DNA of 64,000 nt. Source: Cyanidium caldarium. Lineage: Eukaryota > Rhodophyta > Bangiophyceae > Cyanidiales > Cyanidiaceae. Under the pieces are notes generated by a model. That model did not search any database and was not told the origin of the DNA. It saw only the letters and a list, made by a program, of their open reading frames with translations. The position numbers and the translations under genes are program-made. The stretch is from assembly GCA_026184775.1 (NCBI GenBank), contig JANCYW010000012.1:248001-312000 (forward strand). Direction: 5' to 3'. Positions 18,791 through 29,555 of the stretch are shown in pieces; position 1 is the stretch's first letter, and each line of letters starts with the position of its first letter.

Positions 18791-21697
18791 ATGGGACCGG
18801 TGCTGCAATATCAGGAGCGTGCGCTGGAGAATATAGTGGCAGAGCGCACCTCTCTCACAGTGCTGGGGCGCGGACTGGACGTGGCCGGGCTGGTGGCGCT
18901 GCTGGTGGCGCGTTCGGTGAGCGATAGCGATGGGCGGGCCATCTTGGCGCTGAATTTTCCGCGGCAAGTTTGGGAGCGCATCGCCTGGTATGTGTCGCAG
19001 GAGGTGCCGCAGCTGCCGCTGCACCTGTTGCCGCGGAGGATCGACGCCGAGGCGAGTGCTGCCGAGCGCATGGAGATGTATTGCGCGGGCGGGCTGGTGG
19101 CGGCCTCGGCGCGGACGCTGGCGGTGGACCTGTTAAGCTTCACTGGCGATGCCGATGCCGAGAAATCCGGTGCGTGTCCTAATTTCCTAGGTTTATTGGT
19201 GTACGACGCGCATACGGTATCGGAGCGGCAGGGCGAGGCGTTCGTGGCGCAGCTGTTTCGGCGCTATCGCCGACAGCGAATCGAGCAGTGTACATGGGTG
19301 CACGCGTTCAGCGATGAGGCTGAGGCGCTATGCCGCGGTTTTCACCAGGTGGAGCGGCTGATGCGACTACTGGGCGTGGAGCGCCTGTACCTGTATCCGC
19401 GTTTTCACATGGATGTGGTGGCATCGCTCCCCGCGCCTGCCGGTTCCACTACCGATACCGACGGTCACGCATCGAGCGGTGTGGAGGTGATTGAGTTGCA
19501 TCAGCCACTCACCTCGATGATGCGCTCGATTCAGGACGATCTGATGCTGTGCTTGCGTACCTGCATTGCCGAGTTGCGCCGCAGTCATCCCAGCTTGGAT
19601 GTGGAGGACAGTGCGTTGGACGCGGCGCTGCATCGACCGCTGGCGAGCAGTTTCCGCCAACAACTGATGCCGCTGTGGCATCGCCTCGGGTCGCGCACCC
19701 GCCAGCTCATCCACGACGTGTACATATTGCAGCGGCTGTTGATGGCCTTACTGGAGTACGACGGCGTCACCTTTTGGGAGCTACTGGAGACGCTGCGCGC
19801 GACGGAGGGCACCGACAGTTTCTGGATGATGACCGAGGCCGCTCAGCGGGTGTTTGCGGTGGCGCGAGCCCGCGTGTATCCGTTGGGAGAGTCAGTGCCG
19901 ACGGAGCGTGTCGACAAAACGATGCAGGCGGTTGCGAGCGATTCGACTGCCCGACCCGTCCAAGCGGTGCTCGAAGAGAACAGCAAATGGACGCTGCTGC
20001 GCCAAGTGCTGCAAGAGGTGCGCGACGACTTGAACGTCTTGAGACGACAAGATGACCATTTGCCAGCGCAGTGCTTGCGAGTGGTGGTGGTCGTGCGGGA
20101 CAGCGAGGTGATGTACTCGCTGTCGCAGGCGATGAGTGCGGCTGATGCGAGTCGACGAGTGTTGGAGGACAAGTACCAGCGGCACTGCCGCAAGTGGCGG
20201 GCGCGGGTGGAGCGCGCTGAGGGTGAGGAGAAAGGTGCCGCGACAGAGGGCGACGTTGAGGATGATGGCAACACACTCTCGGATGGAGAGAAAACACTCG
20301 AGGTGCAGTTCGCGGAGGATGTGGACGAAGAGGTCGCTACCACCCGTTCCGATAGCGAGCAGGAGCAAGTGGCGCCAAGAAAGAATGGCGGTGTCGACGG
20401 CAACACAAGCACGGACACGTCACGACGTCGGGCCAAGCGGGCGCGTCGTACTCCACCCGAGGCGGTGCAGGCGCCAGCGCTACGCTTCGACGTGGTGGAC
20501 GACTGCTACCAAATCGTGTTTCAGTGTGCTGGCGGCGCGGACGTCGGAATGCGTCGCAATGGCGGCGGCGGCGGCGGCAGCGCCTCATCGCTGCTGGATT
20601 TTTTATGCACGTATCAGCCGAGCGTGGTGGTGCTGTACGACCCGACCTTGCGGCATATGCGGGAGGTAGAGGTGTATCAGGCGGGATGCTCGCCATTCTC
20701 CCGCATTCGCCTCTATTTGTTGTTGTATGAAGATTCACTGGAGGCGCAACGCTTTCGCAGCAGCGTCGAGGAGGAGCGTCAGGCGTTCGAGACGCTCATC
20801 CGCCACAAGGCAACCATGGTGGTGCGACTGGACGACCCGCTCGCCGACAACCCGGCCGAGCAGGCCCGCGCGGCCGCGGAGGCGTGGGAGATGCCGGCGC
20901 CGCGTCCGGGTATCGATATGTTGGCCACGTCGGGGAGCGCTCCGGGCCGCATCTTGATCGATGTGCGCGAGTTCCGCTCTCCGGTGCCGGGCCGTCTGTA
21001 TCAGCACGGCTTTCGCATCGTGCCGCTTACGTTGCCCATCGGCGACTACATCCTCACGCCGCAGATGGCGGTGGAGCGCAAGACCGTATCGGATCTGGTG
21101 AGCTCGCTCAACTCGGGGCGTCTGTTCGCCCAATGCGAGGCGCTGTGCAAGGCGTATCGGCACGCGGTGCTGGTGATCGAGTTTGACGAACAACGTCCGT
21201 TCGGTTTCTTTCAGTGGACCGAGACGAGCACCGCCGCCGCCACCGACGCCGACGCCGCCAGACTGTTGAACGCCTCGGCCACCCCGGTGGGTAAGCTGTG
21301 TCTGTTGACGCTGCATTTCCCGCGCTTGCGTCTGCTGTGGTGCCACGGGGCGCATGCCACTGCCGAGGCGTTCCGAGCGTTGAAAGCGAACGAGGACGAG
21401 CCGGAGGAGTCGGCCGCGCTGGCCGCACAGCCATCGGCCATGATCACGCCCGCCGACGACAGCGAAGCACCCGCTGCCGTGACCATGTCGGTGCGCGACT
21501 ATTTTTCCTCCAGTGCCCAAGATATGCTGCGACATCTGCCGGCGGTGAACGCGAAGAACGTGTTCCTGCTAATGCGCAAGTTTCCCGACCTGGCCGCGCT
21601 GGCCGCCGCCGACGCCTCCGAGTTGGCCGAGGTGCTGGGCACTGCAGGCACCCGACAATTGCTGCGTTTTCTCTCCCAACCTAGCACCGGTGAATAG
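18791..21697 (+). CDS. ERCC4: XPF/RAD1 structure-specific endonuclease (ERCC4)
   Basis: The 968-residue product matches XPF along its length. With ERCC1 it cuts the 5' side of lesions in nucleotide excision repair and acts in crosslink repair. The N-terminal degenerate SF2 helicase domain is recognisable (YQERALENIV, TSLTVLGRGLDVAGL, GLVAASARTLAVDLL, LYPRFH) but has no working Walker A. An acidic, charged linker spans about residues 470-560. The nuclease domain has ILIDVREFRS, LPIGDYILTP and ERKTVSDLVSSLNSGRL near residue 761, so the catalytic GDx(n)ERKx3D motif is intact. A tandem helix-hairpin-helix region (LPAVNAKNVFLLMRKF, LGTAGTRQLLRFL) closes the protein. The ATG at 18791 starts the homology. 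Confidence 0.95.
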   Translation: MGPVLQYQERALENIVAERTSLTVLGRGLDVAGLVALLVARSVSDSDGRAILALNFPRQVWERIAWYVSQEVPQLPLHLLPRRIDAEASAAERMEMYCAGGLVAASARTLAVDLLSFTGDADAEKSGACPNFLGLLVYDAHTVSERQGEAFVAQLFRRYRRQRIEQCTWVHAFSDEAEALCRGFHQVERLMRLLGVERLYLYPRFHMDVVASLPAPAGSTTDTDGHASSGVEVIELHQPLTSMMRSIQDDLMLCLRTCIAELRRSHPSLDVEDSALDAALHRPLASSFRQQLMPLWHRLGSRTRQLIHDVYILQRLLMALLEYDGVTFWELLETLRATEGTDSFWMMTEAAQRVFAVARARVYPLGESVPTERVDKTMQAVASDSTARPVQAVLEENSKWTLLRQVLQEVRDDLNVLRRQDDHLPAQCLRVVVVVRDSEVMYSLSQAMSAADASRRVLEDKYQRHCRKWRARVERAEGEEKGAATEGDVEDDGNTLSDGEKTLEVQFAEDVDEEVATTRSDSEQEQVAPRKNGGVDGNTSTDTSRRRAKRARRTPPEAVQAPALRFDVVDDCYQIVFQCAGGADVGMRRNGGGGGGSASSLLDFLCTYQPSVVVLYDPTLRHMREVEVYQAGCSPFSRIRLYLLLYEDSLEAQRFRSSVEEERQAFETLIRHKATMVVRLDDPLADNPAEQARAAAEAWEMPAPRPGIDMLATSGSAPGRILIDVREFRSPVPGRLYQHGFRIVPLTLPIGDYILTPQMAVERKTVSDLVSSLNSGRLFAQCEALCKAYRHAVLVIEFDEQRPFGFFQWTETSTAAATDADAARLLNASATPVGKLCLLTLHFPRLRLLWCHGAHATAEAFRALKANEDEPEESAALAAQPSAMITPADDSEAPAAVTMSVRDYFSSSAQDMLRHLPAVNAKNVFLLMRKFPDLAALAAADASELAEVLGTAGTRQLLRFLSQPSTGE

Positions 21698-22823: not shown

Positions 22824-23885
22824 TTACGGATCCTTGATCAGCGCTCGTTGCAGGGCGGCCTTCACATCCGGCTGCGGCTCGGGGCGCACCCAGCTCGGCT
22901 CGGGGAGGCCGCGTTCCCGCAGGTACGGCGGGCTGAACATCTTGGCAGAATAGCGAGTGCCGCTATCGCACAGGATTGTCACAACAGTATGTCCGGGACC
23001 TAGCGCCTGGGCGACGCGCACAGCGCCCGCCACATTGATACCCGATGACGGGCCGACGTTGAGCCCTTCGTGCTGCAACAGCTCAAACGCCTCCTGAAAT
23101 GCCTCGGCATCGGTGATCTCCACCGCCACGTCTGGTCGGAAGCCGTCGAGGTTTTTGGTGATGCGGCCCTGCCCGATACCTTCGGTGATGGAGCTGCCCA
23201 CCGAGCGCAGCTCGCCTTCGTTGTAGTATCGTACCAGCGCCGCGCCTTGCGGGTCGGTCAGGGCGATCTTCACGTCCGGCTTTTGCGAGCGCAGGTAGGC
23301 GGCCACCCCGGCCAGCGTGCCACCAGATCCCACAGCACAATTGAATGCGTCGATGCGCCCGCGCAGTTGTGCCCATATCTCCGGGCCGGTGGTCTCGGCA
23401 TGCGCCCGTCGGTTGGCCACGTTGTCGAACTGGTTCGCCCATACGCCGCCCAGCTCCTTGGCCAGCCGCTCACTCAAGCGCACATAGTTGTTGGGATTCT
23501 TGTACGGCACTGCCGGCACCTCTACCAACTCCGCCCCACACCACCGGATCATATCCTTCTTCTCCTGCGACTGCGTCTCCGGTATCACGATCACGGTGCG
23601 ATAACCGCGCGAACTGGCCACCAACGCCAACCCGATGCCAGTGTTGCCGGCGGTGCCCTCGACGATAATAGAGCCTCGCGTGAGCAACCCGCGTTCCTCC
23701 GCATCCCGCACGAGGTAGAGCGCCGCGCGGTCCTTGACCGACCCACCCGGCTCCATAAACTCCGCCTTGCCGTAAATGTGGCAACCGGTGCGCTCCGACG
23801 CCCGGCGCAACCGGATGAGCGGCGTATTGCCCACCGCCTCCGCGAACGATTCATACACATTATCATCAATAATGGTAGGTGCCAT
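22824..23885 (-). CDS. Cysteine synthase (Cys12/CysK type, PLP-dependent)
   Basis: This PLP enzyme makes cysteine from O-acetylserine and sulfide, or does a related beta-replacement. The 353-residue frame shows VGNTPLIRL at the start, the PLP lysine in GGSVKDRAAL near residue 48, the phosphate loop EGTAGNTGIGLA, GSGGTLAGV, SITEGIGQGRIT and LCDSGTRYSAK. The strings IPETQSQEKKDMIRWCGAELVEVPAVPYKNPNNYV and WANQFDN point to the fungal Cys12/bacterial subgroup rather than plant-type OAS-thiol-lyase. The first in-frame ATG is 23885 (MAPTIIDDNVYESF), giving no transit peptide, hence a cytosolic enzyme is likely. The frame is open upstream but lacks an ATG. Head-to-head with QueA. Confidence 0.92.
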   Translation of the reverse strand: MAPTIIDDNVYESFAEAVGNTPLIRLRRASERTGCHIYGKAEFMEPGGSVKDRAALYLVRDAEERGLLTRGSIIVEGTAGNTGIGLALVASSRGYRTVIVIPETQSQEKKDMIRWCGAELVEVPAVPYKNPNNYVRLSERLAKELGGVWANQFDNVANRRAHAETTGPEIWAQLRGRIDAFNCAVGSGGTLAGVAAYLRSQKPDVKIALTDPQGAALVRYYNEGELRSVGSSITEGIGQGRITKNLDGFRPDVAVEITDAEAFQEAFELLQHEGLNVGPSSGINVAGAVRVAQALGPGHTVVTILCDSGTRYSAKMFSPPYLRERGLPEPSWVRPEPQPDVKAALQRALIKDP

Positions 23886-24185
23886 GGAATCGCAATGCAA
23901 GTTGTGGAAGAGGAAACGGGGTAAGCGATCGTCGGCCCTCGTTGACGAGCCCGTCCGCCGCCGGTTGTGCCCCGCGCGCGCACCGACAATCTCCTGCGCG
24001 TGGGCGATCACACACGGTGTCGCGACGGGCTCGGGCAATGGCCCTGTGGAGGAGGGACCGTCCGACACCGCGCTACACCCCCGCCATAGCCGGAGAAGAG
24101 ATGGCAGGGTGGGAATAATGCATAATTCAGTGTGGCATAGTCGGTAACAGGAGTTCGCTGGATAGGCAGAGAGTGGTGCCTCGAA
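23886..24185. promoter_or_regulatory. Bidirectional spacer cysteine synthase / QueA
   Basis: About 300 bases lie between divergent starts. The part near 24113-24135 (GGAATAATGCATAATTCAG) is strikingly AT-rich for this window and could act as a TATA-like core for QueA. Confidence 0.4.
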
Positions 24186-25580
24186 ATGCGGTTGCTAGGA
24201 CACTCGGTGCGTTGGTTGATCCGACCGCACCCATCTCGCTGGAGTCGCCGCGTGGGCACCTCCCCGACAGTTACAGCGAATGAACGACGGCAGTCGCGAT
24301 CCATGGCGCCAGACGATGCGCTTCCCGACGTGCGGACGGACGACTTTGACTATCACCTGCCCGAGGAGCGGGTGGCCAAGTTTCCACTGGCGGATCGGAG
24401 TGCGTCCAAACTGTTGGTGTTCGAGGCGGGACGGTCGTTGCGGCATCGGCGCTTTGTGGATCTACCACAGCTGCTGCCGTCGGATGCGGTACTGGTGCGT
24501 AACAACTCCAAGGTGATCGCAGCGCGGCTGTTGCTGCACAAGGAGCGGATTGGACGGAGGGGGAAGATGGGCGGCGGCAAGGCGGAGCTGTTGTGTTTGG
24601 AGCCGCTGCAGCCCAGCACCGATCCGGCCGTGGCGCTGGCTTGCACCACGCCGCCGGTAGTATGGAGCTGTTATTGCGGCGGGCGGCGCATCCACAACGG
24701 CACGGTGTTGCACGGTGAGCATGTACGCGCCACCATGCTCGAGCGGGTGGGCATGGAGACGTGGGTGCGTTTCGACTGGACGCCCGGCCAACCGTGTCAC
24801 TCGTTTGCCGACGTACTGGAACGGGAAGGCCACACACCCCTGCCGCCGTATCTGCGGCGCGAGGATGTGCCGGCCGACAGACGCACGTACCAGACGGTGT
24901 ACGCCAGTCGGGAGGGATCGGTGGCTGCGCCCACGGCGGGGCTGCATTTCACCTCCGACATGATCGAGCGACACTTTGCGGACCGCGTGGTCAACGTGAC
25001 GCTGCATGTGGGTGCGGGCACATTTGCACCGATATTATCCGAGGCCATCAGCGGGCACCAGATGCACCGAGAGCGAGCTTGTATTGAGCGGGCCGAGTTG
25101 GAACGATTGGTGGCGTTCATGGAGCAACGGCGACCGATCGCAGCCGTGGGCACCACCTCGGCACGCACGCTGGAGAGTCTGCACTGGCACGGCGCCGCGT
25201 TGCTAGAGGGCGCCGGGAAAAGTGGGATGGGCGAGGAGTTTTGGGTGTCCCAGTGGCAGCCGTACAACTGCACGGCATCGGCGTCGGCGCTGGATACGTA
25301 TCGGGCGGTGCTGCGCCGCATGGATGAGGCGTCCTTGGCGGTGATGCGTGGGTACACCAACCTGCTGATCGTGCCGCCATATGAGTTTCAAGTGGTGGAC
25401 GCATTGGTCACCAACTTTCATCGGCCGCGCTCTACCCTGCTTATGCTGGTGGCCGCGTTGGTGCCCGGCGGCCGCGACACGCTGATGCACATCTACGAGG
25501 AGGCGTTGAAACATGAGTACCGCTTTTTGTCTTACGGTGACAGCTCGCTGCTGACGCGACGGCCCATGTTGCGACAATGA
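24186..25580 (+). CDS. queA: QueA, S-adenosylmethionine:tRNA ribosyltransferase-isomerase, with organelle-type leader
   Basis: QueA transfers and isomerises the ribosyl group of SAM onto 7-aminomethyl-7-deazaguanine in tRNA, giving epoxyqueuosine, the penultimate step of bacterial queuosine synthesis. The frame shows FDYHLPEERVAKFPLADRSASKLLV, LVRNNSKVIAARL, the hallmark GSVAAPTAGLHFT near residue 247, LHVGAGTFAPI, the H-x-MH-x-E segment, VGTTSARTLES and NFHRPRSTLLMLV. The insert with W-x-C-Y-x-GG and VRFDW resembles the longer Bacteroidetes-type QueA. The homology starts at about residue 42. The first 39 residues (MRLLGHSVRWLIRPHPSRW and on) are Arg-rich with a single Glu, like a mitochondrial or plastid presequence. 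Eukaryotes normally salvage queuine and lack QueA, so transfer from a bacterium is likely. Internal ATG at 24303 is the alternative start. Confidence 0.93.
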   Translation: MRLLGHSVRWLIRPHPSRWSRRVGTSPTVTANERRQSRSMAPDDALPDVRTDDFDYHLPEERVAKFPLADRSASKLLVFEAGRSLRHRRFVDLPQLLPSDAVLVRNNSKVIAARLLLHKERIGRRGKMGGGKAELLCLEPLQPSTDPAVALACTTPPVVWSCYCGGRRIHNGTVLHGEHVRATMLERVGMETWVRFDWTPGQPCHSFADVLEREGHTPLPPYLRREDVPADRRTYQTVYASREGSVAAPTAGLHFTSDMIERHFADRVVNVTLHVGAGTFAPILSEAISGHQMHRERACIERAELERLVAFMEQRRPIAAVGTTSARTLESLHWHGAALLEGAGKSGMGEEFWVSQWQPYNCTASASALDTYRAVLRRMDEASLAVMRGYTNLLIVPPYEFQVVDALVTNFHRPRSTLLMLVAALVPGGRDTLMHIYEEALKHEYRFLSYGDSSLLTRRPMLRQ

Positions 25581-25838: not shown

Positions 25839-27131
25839 ATGGAAGAGATGTGGCGTGTGCCTCGGCGCGGCGCCCGTATTTGGGCACCACCAGCTGATCA
25901 TCTCCGCAGCGTATTTCGGTCGCGCCGGGTCTCTTTTTGCTCTCAGGGGAAGACGCCCGAAAGCGACGATAGTGATGTGGACTTGTCGCAAGACTGGAGG
26001 AGCGTCGCACTTGCGCAACACCCAAGAACGAGTGCGCCGCATGGACAAGAGACGTTCGGACAGACCAAGCACCCCACGGGCGCGCAGACGCCCGCAGCGC
26101 CGCCATCTCCACGGCATCAGACTTCTGCTGCGCACCGAATCGGGCGCGCGCTGAGCATGGAGGAGATGGCGCGCCTGGGTCGAGCGTTTCGCGAACGCTT
26201 TCCACAGCCGGCATCGGCGCTGAGCGCGCTGAACAGCGTCGTGGGTGGCGATCCTGGTGGTGCAATCACCGACGCTGATGAGGCGCGTTGGTGGGGACGC
26301 CACGGGCGGCCGGCCTCCGAGGCCTGGTACACCGAATGGCACGCGTTTATGACGCACGTGCGCCGGAAACTGCGTCGCGAACGCCGACCCGTGCGCATTA
26401 CCTTTGGCGGCGCCAAGCGTTGGGTCGCCAAGTATGTCCCGCAACGACGCCGTCGGGTTCGGGATTCCGGAGAGAATGATCCCGACGCTAACCATGGCGC
26501 GCGCCGTCGGGCGCGGGTAGAAGACACTTGCATGCGACACGGCAGGGAGCAAGCAGCAGCGCACGAGGCACTTCCGGCCGCATGGCACATGCCATCCTCG
26601 GCGCCGCAGCGGGACGGCACCATCGCCAATGCGCCGCGACCTGTCGCCTGCGCTGGGCCCTGCACCCCGCCGCCGCCAGGTGCTTGGTGGGCACGGGAGC
26701 GATTCGCCGCCGGCGAGCCGGTATGGATTCGTCAGTGGCCGAGTCAGGGCGGCTGGCGGTGGCCCGGCATCATCGCTCGCGACCCGCTGCGGGTGCTGTC
26801 GTTGAGTGAGCTGGCCGCGCACGCGCCTCTGCAAAATCTAGTGTTGGTGGAGAGCAGCGACGGCAGCGCTGCCGCTTCCGGCGGTCACTGCTACCGATGG
26901 GTCGGCATCGATACGGTGGAGAGCATGTTGCCGACTGACGCACAACAAGTGTGTGCGCAAGAGTTCCACGCTCGCCGCACCGACTCCCCACAGCAACAAC
27001 AGTTCGAACGAGCACTGAAACAGGTGCTCCGCATCGCCGAACAGTGGTGGCGCTCGGTGCTACGCTCGACGTCACCATCGCGGTCTCCTTTGGCATGCCT
27101 CCCACGGGCGCACCCCGACACCTCTGCATGA
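25839..27131 (+). CDS. Unknown protein with PWWP-like domain
   Basis: The 430-residue product has no clear full-length relative that I recognise. Residues 1-40 are Arg-rich, and about 41-110 are low-complexity. A basic helical part (MARLGRAFRERFP, WHAFMTHVRRKLRRERR) is near 110-185. At about residue 287 begins a PWWP-like module: FAAGEPVWIRQW, then GWRWPGIIARDPL, a strand LQNLVLVES, and YRWVGIDTVESML. A helix with FERALKQVLRIAEQWW follows. In PWWP domains the first part packs with W-P-x-hydrophobic and the terminal helix contains a similar FxxAL. Such domains bind methyl-lysine nucleosomes and DNA, so a chromatin role is a reasonable inference only. The stop lies 24 bases from the convergent ADC synthase stop. 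Confidence 0.55.
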   Translation: MEEMWRVPRRGARIWAPPADHLRSVFRSRRVSFCSQGKTPESDDSDVDLSQDWRSVALAQHPRTSAPHGQETFGQTKHPTGAQTPAAPPSPRHQTSAAHRIGRALSMEEMARLGRAFRERFPQPASALSALNSVVGGDPGGAITDADEARWWGRHGRPASEAWYTEWHAFMTHVRRKLRRERRPVRITFGGAKRWVAKYVPQRRRRVRDSGENDPDANHGARRRARVEDTCMRHGREQAAAHEALPAAWHMPSSAPQRDGTIANAPRPVACAGPCTPPPPGAWWARERFAAGEPVWIRQWPSQGGWRWPGIIARDPLRVLSLSELAAHAPLQNLVLVESSDGSAAASGGHCYRWVGIDTVESMLPTDAQQVCAQEFHARRTDSPQQQQFERALKQVLRIAEQWWRSVLRSTSPSRSPLACLPRAHPDTSA

Positions 27132-27155: not shown

Positions 27156-29555
27156 TCATCCCTTGGCATTCACCTCTCCCGCGCATTCAGCGCCGAGCAC
27201 TTGAAAGCTCTTGGCGCCGGCCGCGACTCCAACGGACCGTATCAGAGCCATGGCCTTGAGCATCATCTCCTGGAACTCATCTTCGGCGTCGCTGCCGGCC
27301 ACGATGGCACCGCCGGCGCCAATCACCACCTGCCAATCCGCCGCCTCCATCGCTGTCTTTCGCGGCGGCCGATGCCACACGGCAGTGCGAATCACCACAT
27401 TCCAATCGGCAAACTGTCCGCCGGCGCTCACATACCCGATGCTGCCGCTGTACACACCGCGCCCACTCCGCTCCAGACCGTCGATAATCTGCATGGTGCG
27501 GCGCTTGGGCGCTCCGGTCATCGATCCCATCGGGAAGCACGCGCGCAACACCGCCGCCACGGCGCCGCTCGACGCCTCCGGCAGCTGCCCGCACACGGTG
27601 CTCACCATCTGATGCACCGTGGCGTACGATTCGATCGTCATCAAACGCGGCACCGCCACGCTACCGAGTGCACACACGCGTCCCAGGTCGTTGCGCACCA
27701 GGTCGACGATCATGAGGTTCTCGGCGCGATCCTTGCCGCTGTGCCGCAGGCGCTCGCGCAGCTGCGCATCCTCCGATGGCGTGCGCCCGCGCCGAATGGT
27801 GCCTTTGATGGGGCGCGACTCCAGTCGCGTGCCGTGACGCAAGCGCAGGAAGCGCTCCGGCGACGAGCAGCAGATGGCCGTGTCGGCATCGAAGCGGATG
27901 TACGCCGCGAACGGTGCCGGGTTCAGCTGCCGCAGCACCAGATAATGCTGCAGCGGATCGAAAGTGTCGGCGGCCGTGTTGGGCACCGTGGCCCGCAGCC
28001 GGTTGGTGAGACAGATCTCGTACGACTCGCCGTCGCGGATCTGCGCCAGACACGCTCCAATGTCGGCCACGTACTCGTCGTGCGAGCGTTCCAGCCGGAA
28101 CGAGAGGAGTGCGTCGGTGAGAGGCGTGGCGGAGGCGATGACCGCCGACTCCTGAGGTGCCGCTCCCGCTTCCTCCTCTACATGCCTCAATGTTCGCTCG
28201 GCGTGAACGAGCCACGCACGCGCGGCCGACAACTCGTCTCCATGCGACGCAGCCCGACCGTCGGCAGCCAGGGCGATGATGCACACCTCGCCCGTCGCGT
28301 GATCCAGCGCCAACACTCGGGTAGCCAACGCCAATCGGCCGCAGAACGGATCCTCAGGGGCGTGTCGAGCCGCGGCCGGCGCATCGAAACACTCCCGCTT
28401 GATTTCGTAATCCAGCCAGCCCACCCAACCGCCGTAAAGCGGCGGCGGCTCTCTTTCCGCACCCTCCGAAGCTCCGCGAAATTCATCATCGTCGGCAACC
28501 ATCACACCATCCAGTGCGCTTTGCAATCGATCCAGGAACGTGCCATCGGCGGCCTGCACCGTGTAACGCCGGTCCACCTCGCCCATGTACGACCACCGGG
28601 CCGATTCAGGCGGCGGTGGATGCTGGGCGGAGGCGGTGGCCGAATCCAACCAGAACACCGCGCGGGTCGCGTCGCCGCCCAGCAGCCGCTCAAAAAGTCG
28701 CGGTGGCGAACGGACGGCTGCCGGCGCCGTCACCCATCGATGCAGTCGCGTCCATCGTTGTCGTCCAGGAGACGACGAATGGCCGGCGGTAATACCTGTC
28801 TCTGCAGGATTCGTAGGTAACCAGCCATTCGTCGGCACCGTCTTTCGCAGACGCTTCCCCCGCGTTGCCGCTATCTCCAGAAAGTTGCGCATCACCACCG
28901 CGCCGTACTCGGTGCACACCGACTCGACGTGAAACTGCACCCCAAACAACGGCAGATGCGCATGCCGCAGCGCCATGAGGACGCGTTCACCGGTGCGGGG
29001 ATCATCACACCAGGCCAAGGGTATCAGCGACTCATTCAGACTCTTCTCATCCACCACCAACGAGTGGTAGCGCACCGCCCGGAATCCCGCCGCCGGCATG
29101 CCGTGGAACAGGCGCTCCGCCACGCCATCTGCACACTTCATCGCCGCGTCCCAGTACACCGACATCACCTCCCCGTGCGATACGCGTTGTGCATGTCGCA
29201 CTCGCCCGCCATACGCCCAGGCGATACCCTGGTGTCCCAGACACACGCCCAGAATGGGCACGCCGTGCACTGCTTGCCACCGCAGCAGCACCTGGCCGAT
29301 ACCGAGGTCGTCGCGACGCTCAGGCCGACCCGGGCCGGGCGACAGCACGATCGCGTCCACGACGGGTGCGTGGGAGAGGGCGGGCGGGCGATCGGCGTCG
29401 ACTGCACCGAGGCTCTCCAGTCCCAATAATGGATGTAGGCAGGACCAGTCGTCGTTGCGGACCACCAGCGGCGCCTCCCGGTCGTTCACCCATCCGATCA
29501 GTTGATACAAGTTGTACGTGTAGGAATCGTAGCAGTCCACCAGCAGTACCCTCAT
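27156..29555 (-). CDS. ADCS: Aminodeoxychorismate synthase, fused PabA-PabB
   Basis: This 799-residue bifunctional enzyme turns chorismate and glutamine into 4-amino-4-deoxychorismate for p-aminobenzoate and folate synthesis; in plants it is plastidic. The N-terminal glutaminase (PabA) has LLVDCYDSYTYNLYQLI, VLSPGPGRP, the catalytic Cys in GVCLGHQ near residue 103, and FHVES with the His-Glu pair. The C-terminal PabB part has SYEICLTNRL, FAAYIRFD, SSPERFL, RPIKGTIRRG (the PIKGT lysine of aminodeoxychorismate rather than anthranilate synthase) near 580, HMVST-like VHQMVSTVCG, FPMGSMTGAPK and GVYSGSIGY. It starts at MRVLLVDCY with no leader, so no plastid transit peptide is visible. Confidence 0.95.
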   Translation of the reverse strand: MRVLLVDCYDSYTYNLYQLIGWVNDREAPLVVRNDDWSCLHPLLGLESLGAVDADRPPALSHAPVVDAIVLSPGPGRPERRDDLGIGQVLLRWQAVHGVPILGVCLGHQGIAWAYGGRVRHAQRVSHGEVMSVYWDAAMKCADGVAERLFHGMPAAGFRAVRYHSLVVDEKSLNESLIPLAWCDDPRTGERVLMALRHAHLPLFGVQFHVESVCTEYGAVVMRNFLEIAATRGKRLRKTVPTNGWLPTNPAETGITAGHSSSPGRQRWTRLHRWVTAPAAVRSPPRLFERLLGGDATRAVFWLDSATASAQHPPPPESARWSYMGEVDRRYTVQAADGTFLDRLQSALDGVMVADDDEFRGASEGAEREPPPLYGGWVGWLDYEIKRECFDAPAAARHAPEDPFCGRLALATRVLALDHATGEVCIIALAADGRAASHGDELSAARAWLVHAERTLRHVEEEAGAAPQESAVIASATPLTDALLSFRLERSHDEYVADIGACLAQIRDGESYEICLTNRLRATVPNTAADTFDPLQHYLVLRQLNPAPFAAYIRFDADTAICCSSPERFLRLRHGTRLESRPIKGTIRRGRTPSEDAQLRERLRHSGKDRAENLMIVDLVRNDLGRVCALGSVAVPRLMTIESYATVHQMVSTVCGQLPEASSGAVAAVLRACFPMGSMTGAPKRRTMQIIDGLERSGRGVYSGSIGYVSAGGQFADWNVVIRTAVWHRPPRKTAMEAADWQVVIGAGGAIVAGSDAEDEFQEMMLKAMALIRSVGVAAGAKSFQVLGAECAGEVNAKG

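Follow-up and report, generated by a model that had tools for sequence, protein, structure and literature searches.

Does the nuclear genome of a eukaryote carry the QueA of bacterial queuosine synthesis, and what would the enzyme do there? QueA is the tRNA preQ1(34) SAM ribosyltransferase-isomerase, encoded in E. coli by the gene queA. The question is raised by an open reading frame of the red alga Cyanidium caldarium, which lies within a stretch of 64,000 nucleotides (the window, to which all coordinates without a contig name refer). Eukaryotes are held to salvage queuosine only, and bacteria to make it, in the available portions of the literature (PMC12301720, PMC10639084, PMC13326639). Judging from gene content, we put at about 75% the probability that the frame is a real nuclear QueA gene of this alga, and that it contributes one of the steps of a full de novo queuosine pathway encoded in the nucleus.

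The QueA reading frame and its assignment

The features of the gene are the following:
24186..25580, plus strand: open reading frame of QueA, with 464 residues and the stop (frame, PF02547, NCBIfam and PDB matches, structural model)
24186..24302, plus strand: putative 39-residue Arg-rich leader, with a second ATG at 24303 (frame; intermediate coding score; model pLDDT below 50 for residues 1-40)
24339..25553, plus strand: PF02547 Queuosine_synth domain, residues 52-456 (Pfam)
25191..25349, plus strand: additional segment found in the long QueA type (about residues 336-388), flanked on both sides by sequence matching canonical QueA (NCBIfam and PDB hits are interrupted there; it aligns with the bacterial long type)

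The gene is a single open frame of 464 residues and a stop. The original prediction had named NNSKVIAARL, GSVAAPTAGLHFT and VGAGTF as QueA hallmarks within a complete frame; all three are found in the translation, and the Pfam and NCBIfam searches agree. The Pfam match spans profile positions 2-322 of 322 (E = 7.9e-95; 318.1 bits against a cut-off of 25), and chance is excluded as the source of this family membership, as judged from the sequence. With NCBIfam, the score was above the cut-off for NF001140 (331.1 bits, cut-off 324), just below it for TIGR00113 (264.5 bits, cut-off 267.45) and far below it for NF002398 (189.4 bits, cut-off 588). Three PDB sequences matched in all, 1vky, 1wdi and 1yy3, and the predicted structure (mean pLDDT 81.4, residues 1-40 unordered with pLDDT below 50) retrieved the same three entries alone at E ≤ 0.001, as four chains that are all of the QueA family. 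The Cyanidium protein keeps 44 of the 49 near-invariant positions, defined by at least 95% conservation among 26 canonical sequences (including 14 of the 30 second-gene loci discussed below, the motif filter having missed 16); two of the five that differ are gaps. A profile search of the whole 20-contig assembly gave no other PF02547 match. The algal protein is therefore like bacterial QueA (E. coli queA; PDB 1vky, 1yy3) in its full-length family match, its modelled fold and its conserved positions, whereas it differs in being of the long type with the extra segment, in its N-terminal extension and in being encoded by a eukaryotic nuclear gene.

Queuosine-pathway genes in the nuclear assembly

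The assembly comprises 8,787,356 bases in 20 contigs, and its QueC shares 100% identity with the C. caldarium protein CDCA_CDCA04G1277; for three Cyanidiales, 20 chromosomes are given in the accessible text of PMC9812998. We searched it with profiles exon by exon, a procedure in which a split gene could escape as a false absence. The original prediction had proposed a search for QueC, QueD, QueE, QueF, TGT and QueG or QueH, and all of these were matched except QueH. Besides the one QueA, the following were found, so that the pathway genes are spread over contigs C1, C2, C3, C4, C9, C12, C13 and C16:
C2:399730-400263, minus strand: GTP cyclohydrolase I (profile match)
C13:170909-171262, plus strand: QueD, PTPS family (QueD equivalog 99.3 bits, cut-off 89.25)
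C3:436479-437459, plus strand: QueE (profile match)
C4:239968-240642, plus strand: QueC (profile match)
C13:171504-171740, minus strand: QueF (profile match; TIGR03139 145.9 bits, cut-off 86.9)
C12:237007-238098, minus strand: bacterial-like TGT, outside the window and 33.9 kb from QueA (TGT-family profile match)
C16: QTRT1-like TGT-family protein (TGT-family profile match)
C1: QTRT2-like TGT-family protein (TGT-family profile match)
C9:110803-111042, minus strand: QueG (profile match; NCBIfam 319.8 bits, cut-off 200)

QueC, QueD, QueF and QueG all score above their NCBIfam equivalog cut-offs, and have relatives in the PDB (2pg3 and 3bl5 for QueC, 4ntm for QueD, 4f8b for QueF, 5d08 and 5d6s for QueG). 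The PTPS family has three matches in the assembly, of which only the one on C13 exceeds the QueD equivalog cut-off. The two others, L009:1474-1920 (minus strand) and L010:1483-1875 (plus strand), remain below it, and the L010 protein has HGATY at the place of the QueD HGHSY. The QueD and QueF genes lie tail to tail on C13, with stops at 171325 and 171447 and 121 bases between them.

QueE is the weaker assignment. It reaches no NCBIfam cut-off (best score 76.6 bits against 200), Radical_SAM is below its Pfam cut-off, and many prokaryotic QueE lack a segment that follows the cluster motif in the algal protein. A profile built from 33 sequences nevertheless ranks the PDB QueE sequences 6nhl, 5tgs and 4njg first, and the first six fold matches of the model (pLDDT 89.1) are QueE chains, ahead of viperins. 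Profile and predicted fold thus fit the identity of QueE. The best 120 matches include relatives in Cyanidiococcus, Cyanidioschyzon merolae, Galdieria sulphuraria, G. phlegrea, Porphyridium purpureum and Gracilariopsis chorda, two MMETSP transcripts and the EukProt entry tig00020903_g15113, which we take to be from Cyanophora; those of Porphyridium, Gracilariopsis and Galdieria are labelled 7-carboxy-7-deazaguanine synthase in the source databases. In a tree of 84 rows (the query and 83 of the best 120 matches), 62 rows, including all nine red algal or other eukaryotic relatives used, fall on one side of a branch with an SH-aLRT of 92, which is below the mark of 95. The same side holds the leaderless proteins P0146, P0156, P0159, P0174, P0218 and P0236, which may be bacterial, and we therefore do not claim a purely eukaryotic QueE clade.

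For QueC, the best 120 matches name a relative in Cyanidiococcus, an alga with relatives of QueA, QueC and QueE alike, and four bacteria, all Planctomycetota. In a tree of 71 of these matches, Cyanidium falls in a set of five rows with a support of 97. The searches for QueD, QueF and QueG covered the Cyanidium genome alone.

The labels QTRT1-like, QTRT2-like and bacterial-like for the three TGT-family proteins are our presumption, from reading the sequences. In the bacterial-like TGT, Asp 89, 143 and 264 and Cys 302 (E. coli TGT numbering) are conserved, and Cys 304 and 307 are missing; we take the three cysteines to be zinc ligands in the E. coli enzyme. It has His for the Gln of the E. coli motif GIIQG, a residue that presumably lines the pocket, and GGSLGK for the E. 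coli GGLAVGE. An apparent stop inside the profile match proved to be the terminal stop that closes the open frame. Pockets of the GGSLGK/His kind are tied to queuine in the available text of PMC12301720 and PMC11570991, and by its residues the pocket of the bacterial-like TGT is of the queuine type. For preQ1 insertion, either this TGT would accept both bases, or another TGT would handle preQ1.

A de novo route, one of the options named in the original prediction, thus has a gene for each of its steps. GTP cyclohydrolase I, QueD, QueE and QueC would convert GTP in turn to preQ0, and QueF would turn preQ0 into preQ1. Insertion of preQ1 at position 34 of tRNA would fall to a TGT, for which the bacterial-like enzyme encoded on the chromosome of QueA is the most likely candidate. 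QueA, with SAM, would then give epoxyqueuosine-tRNA and QueG queuosine-tRNA, the enzyme activities being those expected of the families. The last steps would take place in an organelle, probably the mitochondrion. Queuine freed from these tRNAs may also feed a cytosolic enzyme of the QTRT1/QTRT2 type. The weak points of the de novo reading are the queuine-type TGT pocket, the scores of QueE below the cut-offs, the narrow miss of TIGR00113 and the long type of QueA.

The same profile searches gave zero matches in the assembly for QueH (the control matched 2 of 14), and replacement of QueG by QueH is rejected, QueG being present and QueH without a match. YhhQ, the preQ0/preQ1 importer, also had zero matches (control 9 of 14), which argues against uptake of preQ0 or preQ1. 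Qng1 frees queuine from queuosine; its family, PF10343, had zero matches in the assembly, where the control was silent too, so that the zero is no evidence of absence; the QTRT1-like and QTRT2-like genes are present. Neither a preQ1 riboswitch nor any other Rfam family reached the gathering score near the que genes (12 loci, 43,176 bases).

The leader and the place of action

The Arg-rich leader of 39 residues noted in the original prediction is present in the frame, with nine Arg/Lys and one Asp/Glu. Its coding score is −3.0, whereas pieces of 39 codons score 12.1 ± 7.4 in frame and −12.8 ± 7.8 out of frame. The extension of the bacterial-like TGT scores 4.4, and those of QueC, QueE, QueF and QueG lie between −4.0 and 1.4; since these are low as well, the coding measure may fit presequences badly. 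Read from its likely start, QueD carries no extension, and the QueE model opens with a helix of low confidence (residues 3-25). Mitochondrial predictions are reported for QueA and QueG of Galdieria, and for Chloropicon, in the available text of PMC12301720, and on these predictions we rank the mitochondrion above the plastid.

It is possible, if less probable than an organellar location, that the leader is untranslated 5' sequence and that translation starts at Met40. QueA would then be cytosolic and the alga would still make queuosine, as two separate systems. The coding score between those of coding and non-coding pieces would suit such a start, as would the lack of order of the leader in the predicted structure and its variation among relatives, being short in the Cyanidiococcus protein P0004 and lacking in its close relative P0003. 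Against a start at Met40 stand the presequence-like N-terminus of Galdieria QueA, the similar starts of QueE in several red algae and the mitochondrial location predicted for QueA and QueG in Galdieria (PMC12301720, as far as its text is available).

The long QueA type and its origin

The long QueA type occurs in Bacteroidota, Chlorobi and Kapabacteria. Of the best 80 loci listed from a GTDB scan, whose patterns were taken from an alignment with many long-type sequences, 79 carry a Bacteroidota title and one a Kapabacteria title. Bacteroides finegoldii and Parabacteroides distasonis each have a short QueA between truB and folK, near metK, and the long QueA elsewhere. When the genomes of 34 of the best 80 loci were searched, all 34 had a second PF02547 gene, in three of them as fragments only (G008, G015, G019), and the 30 second genes recovered all group with canonical QueA at a support of 100 (FastTree, 102 rows). 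The algal protein and the long paralogue of Bacteroidota (Bacteroides finegoldii WP_055278651.1) share a clade (100/100) against canonical QueA, and the same extra segment; they differ in that the bacterial one accompanies a canonical QueA, whereas the algal one stands alone.

Because the long type is found beside canonical QueA in bacteria, its QueA activity can only be called putative. The long type might act on another substrate, or make another product, in bacteria and alga alike, and so be no queuosine enzyme; the second gene in all the genomes searched, the extra segment and the near-invariant positions that differ in Cyanidium would all agree with this. We regard it as unlikely, since most of the near-invariant positions are kept, the model matches only QueA-family entries, and the alga has a single PF02547 gene and yet retains QueG and the preQ1 branch. 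The known substrate of QueG is the product of QueA. An alga that keeps QueG and has no other PF02547 match is most simply read as one in which the long type does the work of QueA. A new substrate for the algal enzyme, the other option in the original prediction, is not needed, though conceivable in view of the canonical-type gene that stands beside the long one in bacteria.

In a careful tree of 64 rows, from 72 in a quick tree, the algal protein groups with the long clade, whose 52 rows have a support of 100/100, and falls outside the 34 rows that make up the Bacteroidota clade (100/99). On these trees the algal QueA branches at the base of the long type and not inside Bacteroidota. A Bacteroidetes-like donor, as originally suggested, agrees with the long type of Bacteroidota but not with this basal branch, and the QueA trees show no donor nested in Bacteroidota. 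When the algae were held together the tree was 8.42 log units better (p-AU 0.712); of 200 bootstrap trees, 18% separate the algal QueA from all other rows by a single branch, as does the 102-row FastTree (support 95) but not an 86-row FastTree. A single origin of the algal QueA is thus neither shown nor rejected by the sequences.

QueA in an alga has been reported: QueA, QueG and a bacterial-like TGT are described in Chloropicon and Galdieria, two Chloropicon strains being without YhhQ as well, in the accessible part of a 2025 paper (PMC12301720), which proposes mitochondrial salvage for Chloropicon. If Cyanidium likewise only salvaged, its mitochondrial TGT, QueA and QueG would finish preQ1 taken up from outside to queuosine, and the genes for earlier steps would serve otherwise. 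The likeness in these three enzymes, Galdieria included, favours such a scheme, but Cyanidium adds GTP cyclohydrolase I, QueD, QueE, QueC and QueF, and no YhhQ was matched while the control was; by its genes, Cyanidium points to synthesis rather than uptake, and we consider salvage alone quite improbable. QueF is not known to have any use apart from preQ1.

The gene set of the de novo reading resembles the bacterial pathway in having a gene for each enzyme step from GTP, and differs in being eukaryotic, with genes on scattered chromosomes and a TGT whose pocket is of the queuine type, accompanied by QTRT1-like and QTRT2-like proteins. Another eukaryote, Physarum polycephalum, is said to have preQ1-synthesis enzymes (PMC4758236, 2015), in a brief mention among pteridine pathways; QueA does not appear in the main text available. 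Among the open-access papers listed, we found none that describes a red alga with the full queuosine pathway, and the available text of PMC6593275 and PMC6629376 holds nothing on algal queuosine. What appears to be new here, from the genome sequence, is that the nuclear genome with this QueA also holds the whole upstream branch, with no importer found and the long type as sole QueA.

We lean slightly towards a wider view, in which red algae would be queuosine prototrophs and queuine producers, with the long type as their only QueA and a nuclear-encoded, at least partly organellar pathway that goes back to the ancestor of red algae or beyond; the long QueA of Bacteroidota would then itself work as QueA. 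If the de novo reading is true, a eukaryote with a gene for each step from GTP to queuosine-tRNA breaks the salvage-only rule, and algae could supply queuine to food webs. Genetically tractable red algae would be test organisms for eukaryotic queuosine synthesis, and the alga a natural test of the role that the second, long QueA has in Bacteroidota. It would also correct the judgement, in the accessible text of a 2026 paper (PMC13329287), that 43 eukaryotic sequences in the canonical QueC cluster are artefacts, through transfer or contamination.

The window belongs to a contig of 408,225 bases with eukaryotic genes around QueA, as the original prediction had described, among them proteins with PP2C and DOP1_C domains (Pfam) and the following neighbours:
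18791..21697, plus strand: ERCC4-domain (XPF-like) protein (PF02732, 1.2e-24)
22824..24068, minus strand: cysteine synthase A, upstream and divergent (PF00291, 3.6e-72; NF007989 512.9 bits, above the cut-off)
27156..29555, minus strand: fused PabA-PabB aminodeoxychorismate synthase (PF00117 and PF00425; NCBIfam PabB-fungal 388.7 bits, below the cut-off of 442.55)

Downstream of QueA, an open frame of 430 codons (25839-27131, plus strand) matches neither Pfam nor NCBIfam and has weaker coding statistics than its neighbours. Relatives of QueA are found in Cyanidiococcus yangmingshanensis (54% identity), Galdieria sulphuraria (43%) and G. partita (44%), which makes contamination unlikely. That the gene derives from a contaminating bacterium, as its elsewhere mostly bacterial family might suggest, is hardly credible given the contig and its eukaryotic genes, the codon usage, and relatives that make or join algal branches and never a bacterial genus. 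Tree position and contig context, among the checks proposed beforehand, gave no sign of a contaminant, and a bacterial-type QueA inside a eukaryotic nuclear genome is borne out by the full-length PF02547 match, the neighbours and the red algal relatives. The codon habits that QueA had been said to share with its neighbours were recovered too, with an RSCU correlation of 0.881 between the QueA body and six neighbours, each of which correlates with the rest at 0.874-0.945.
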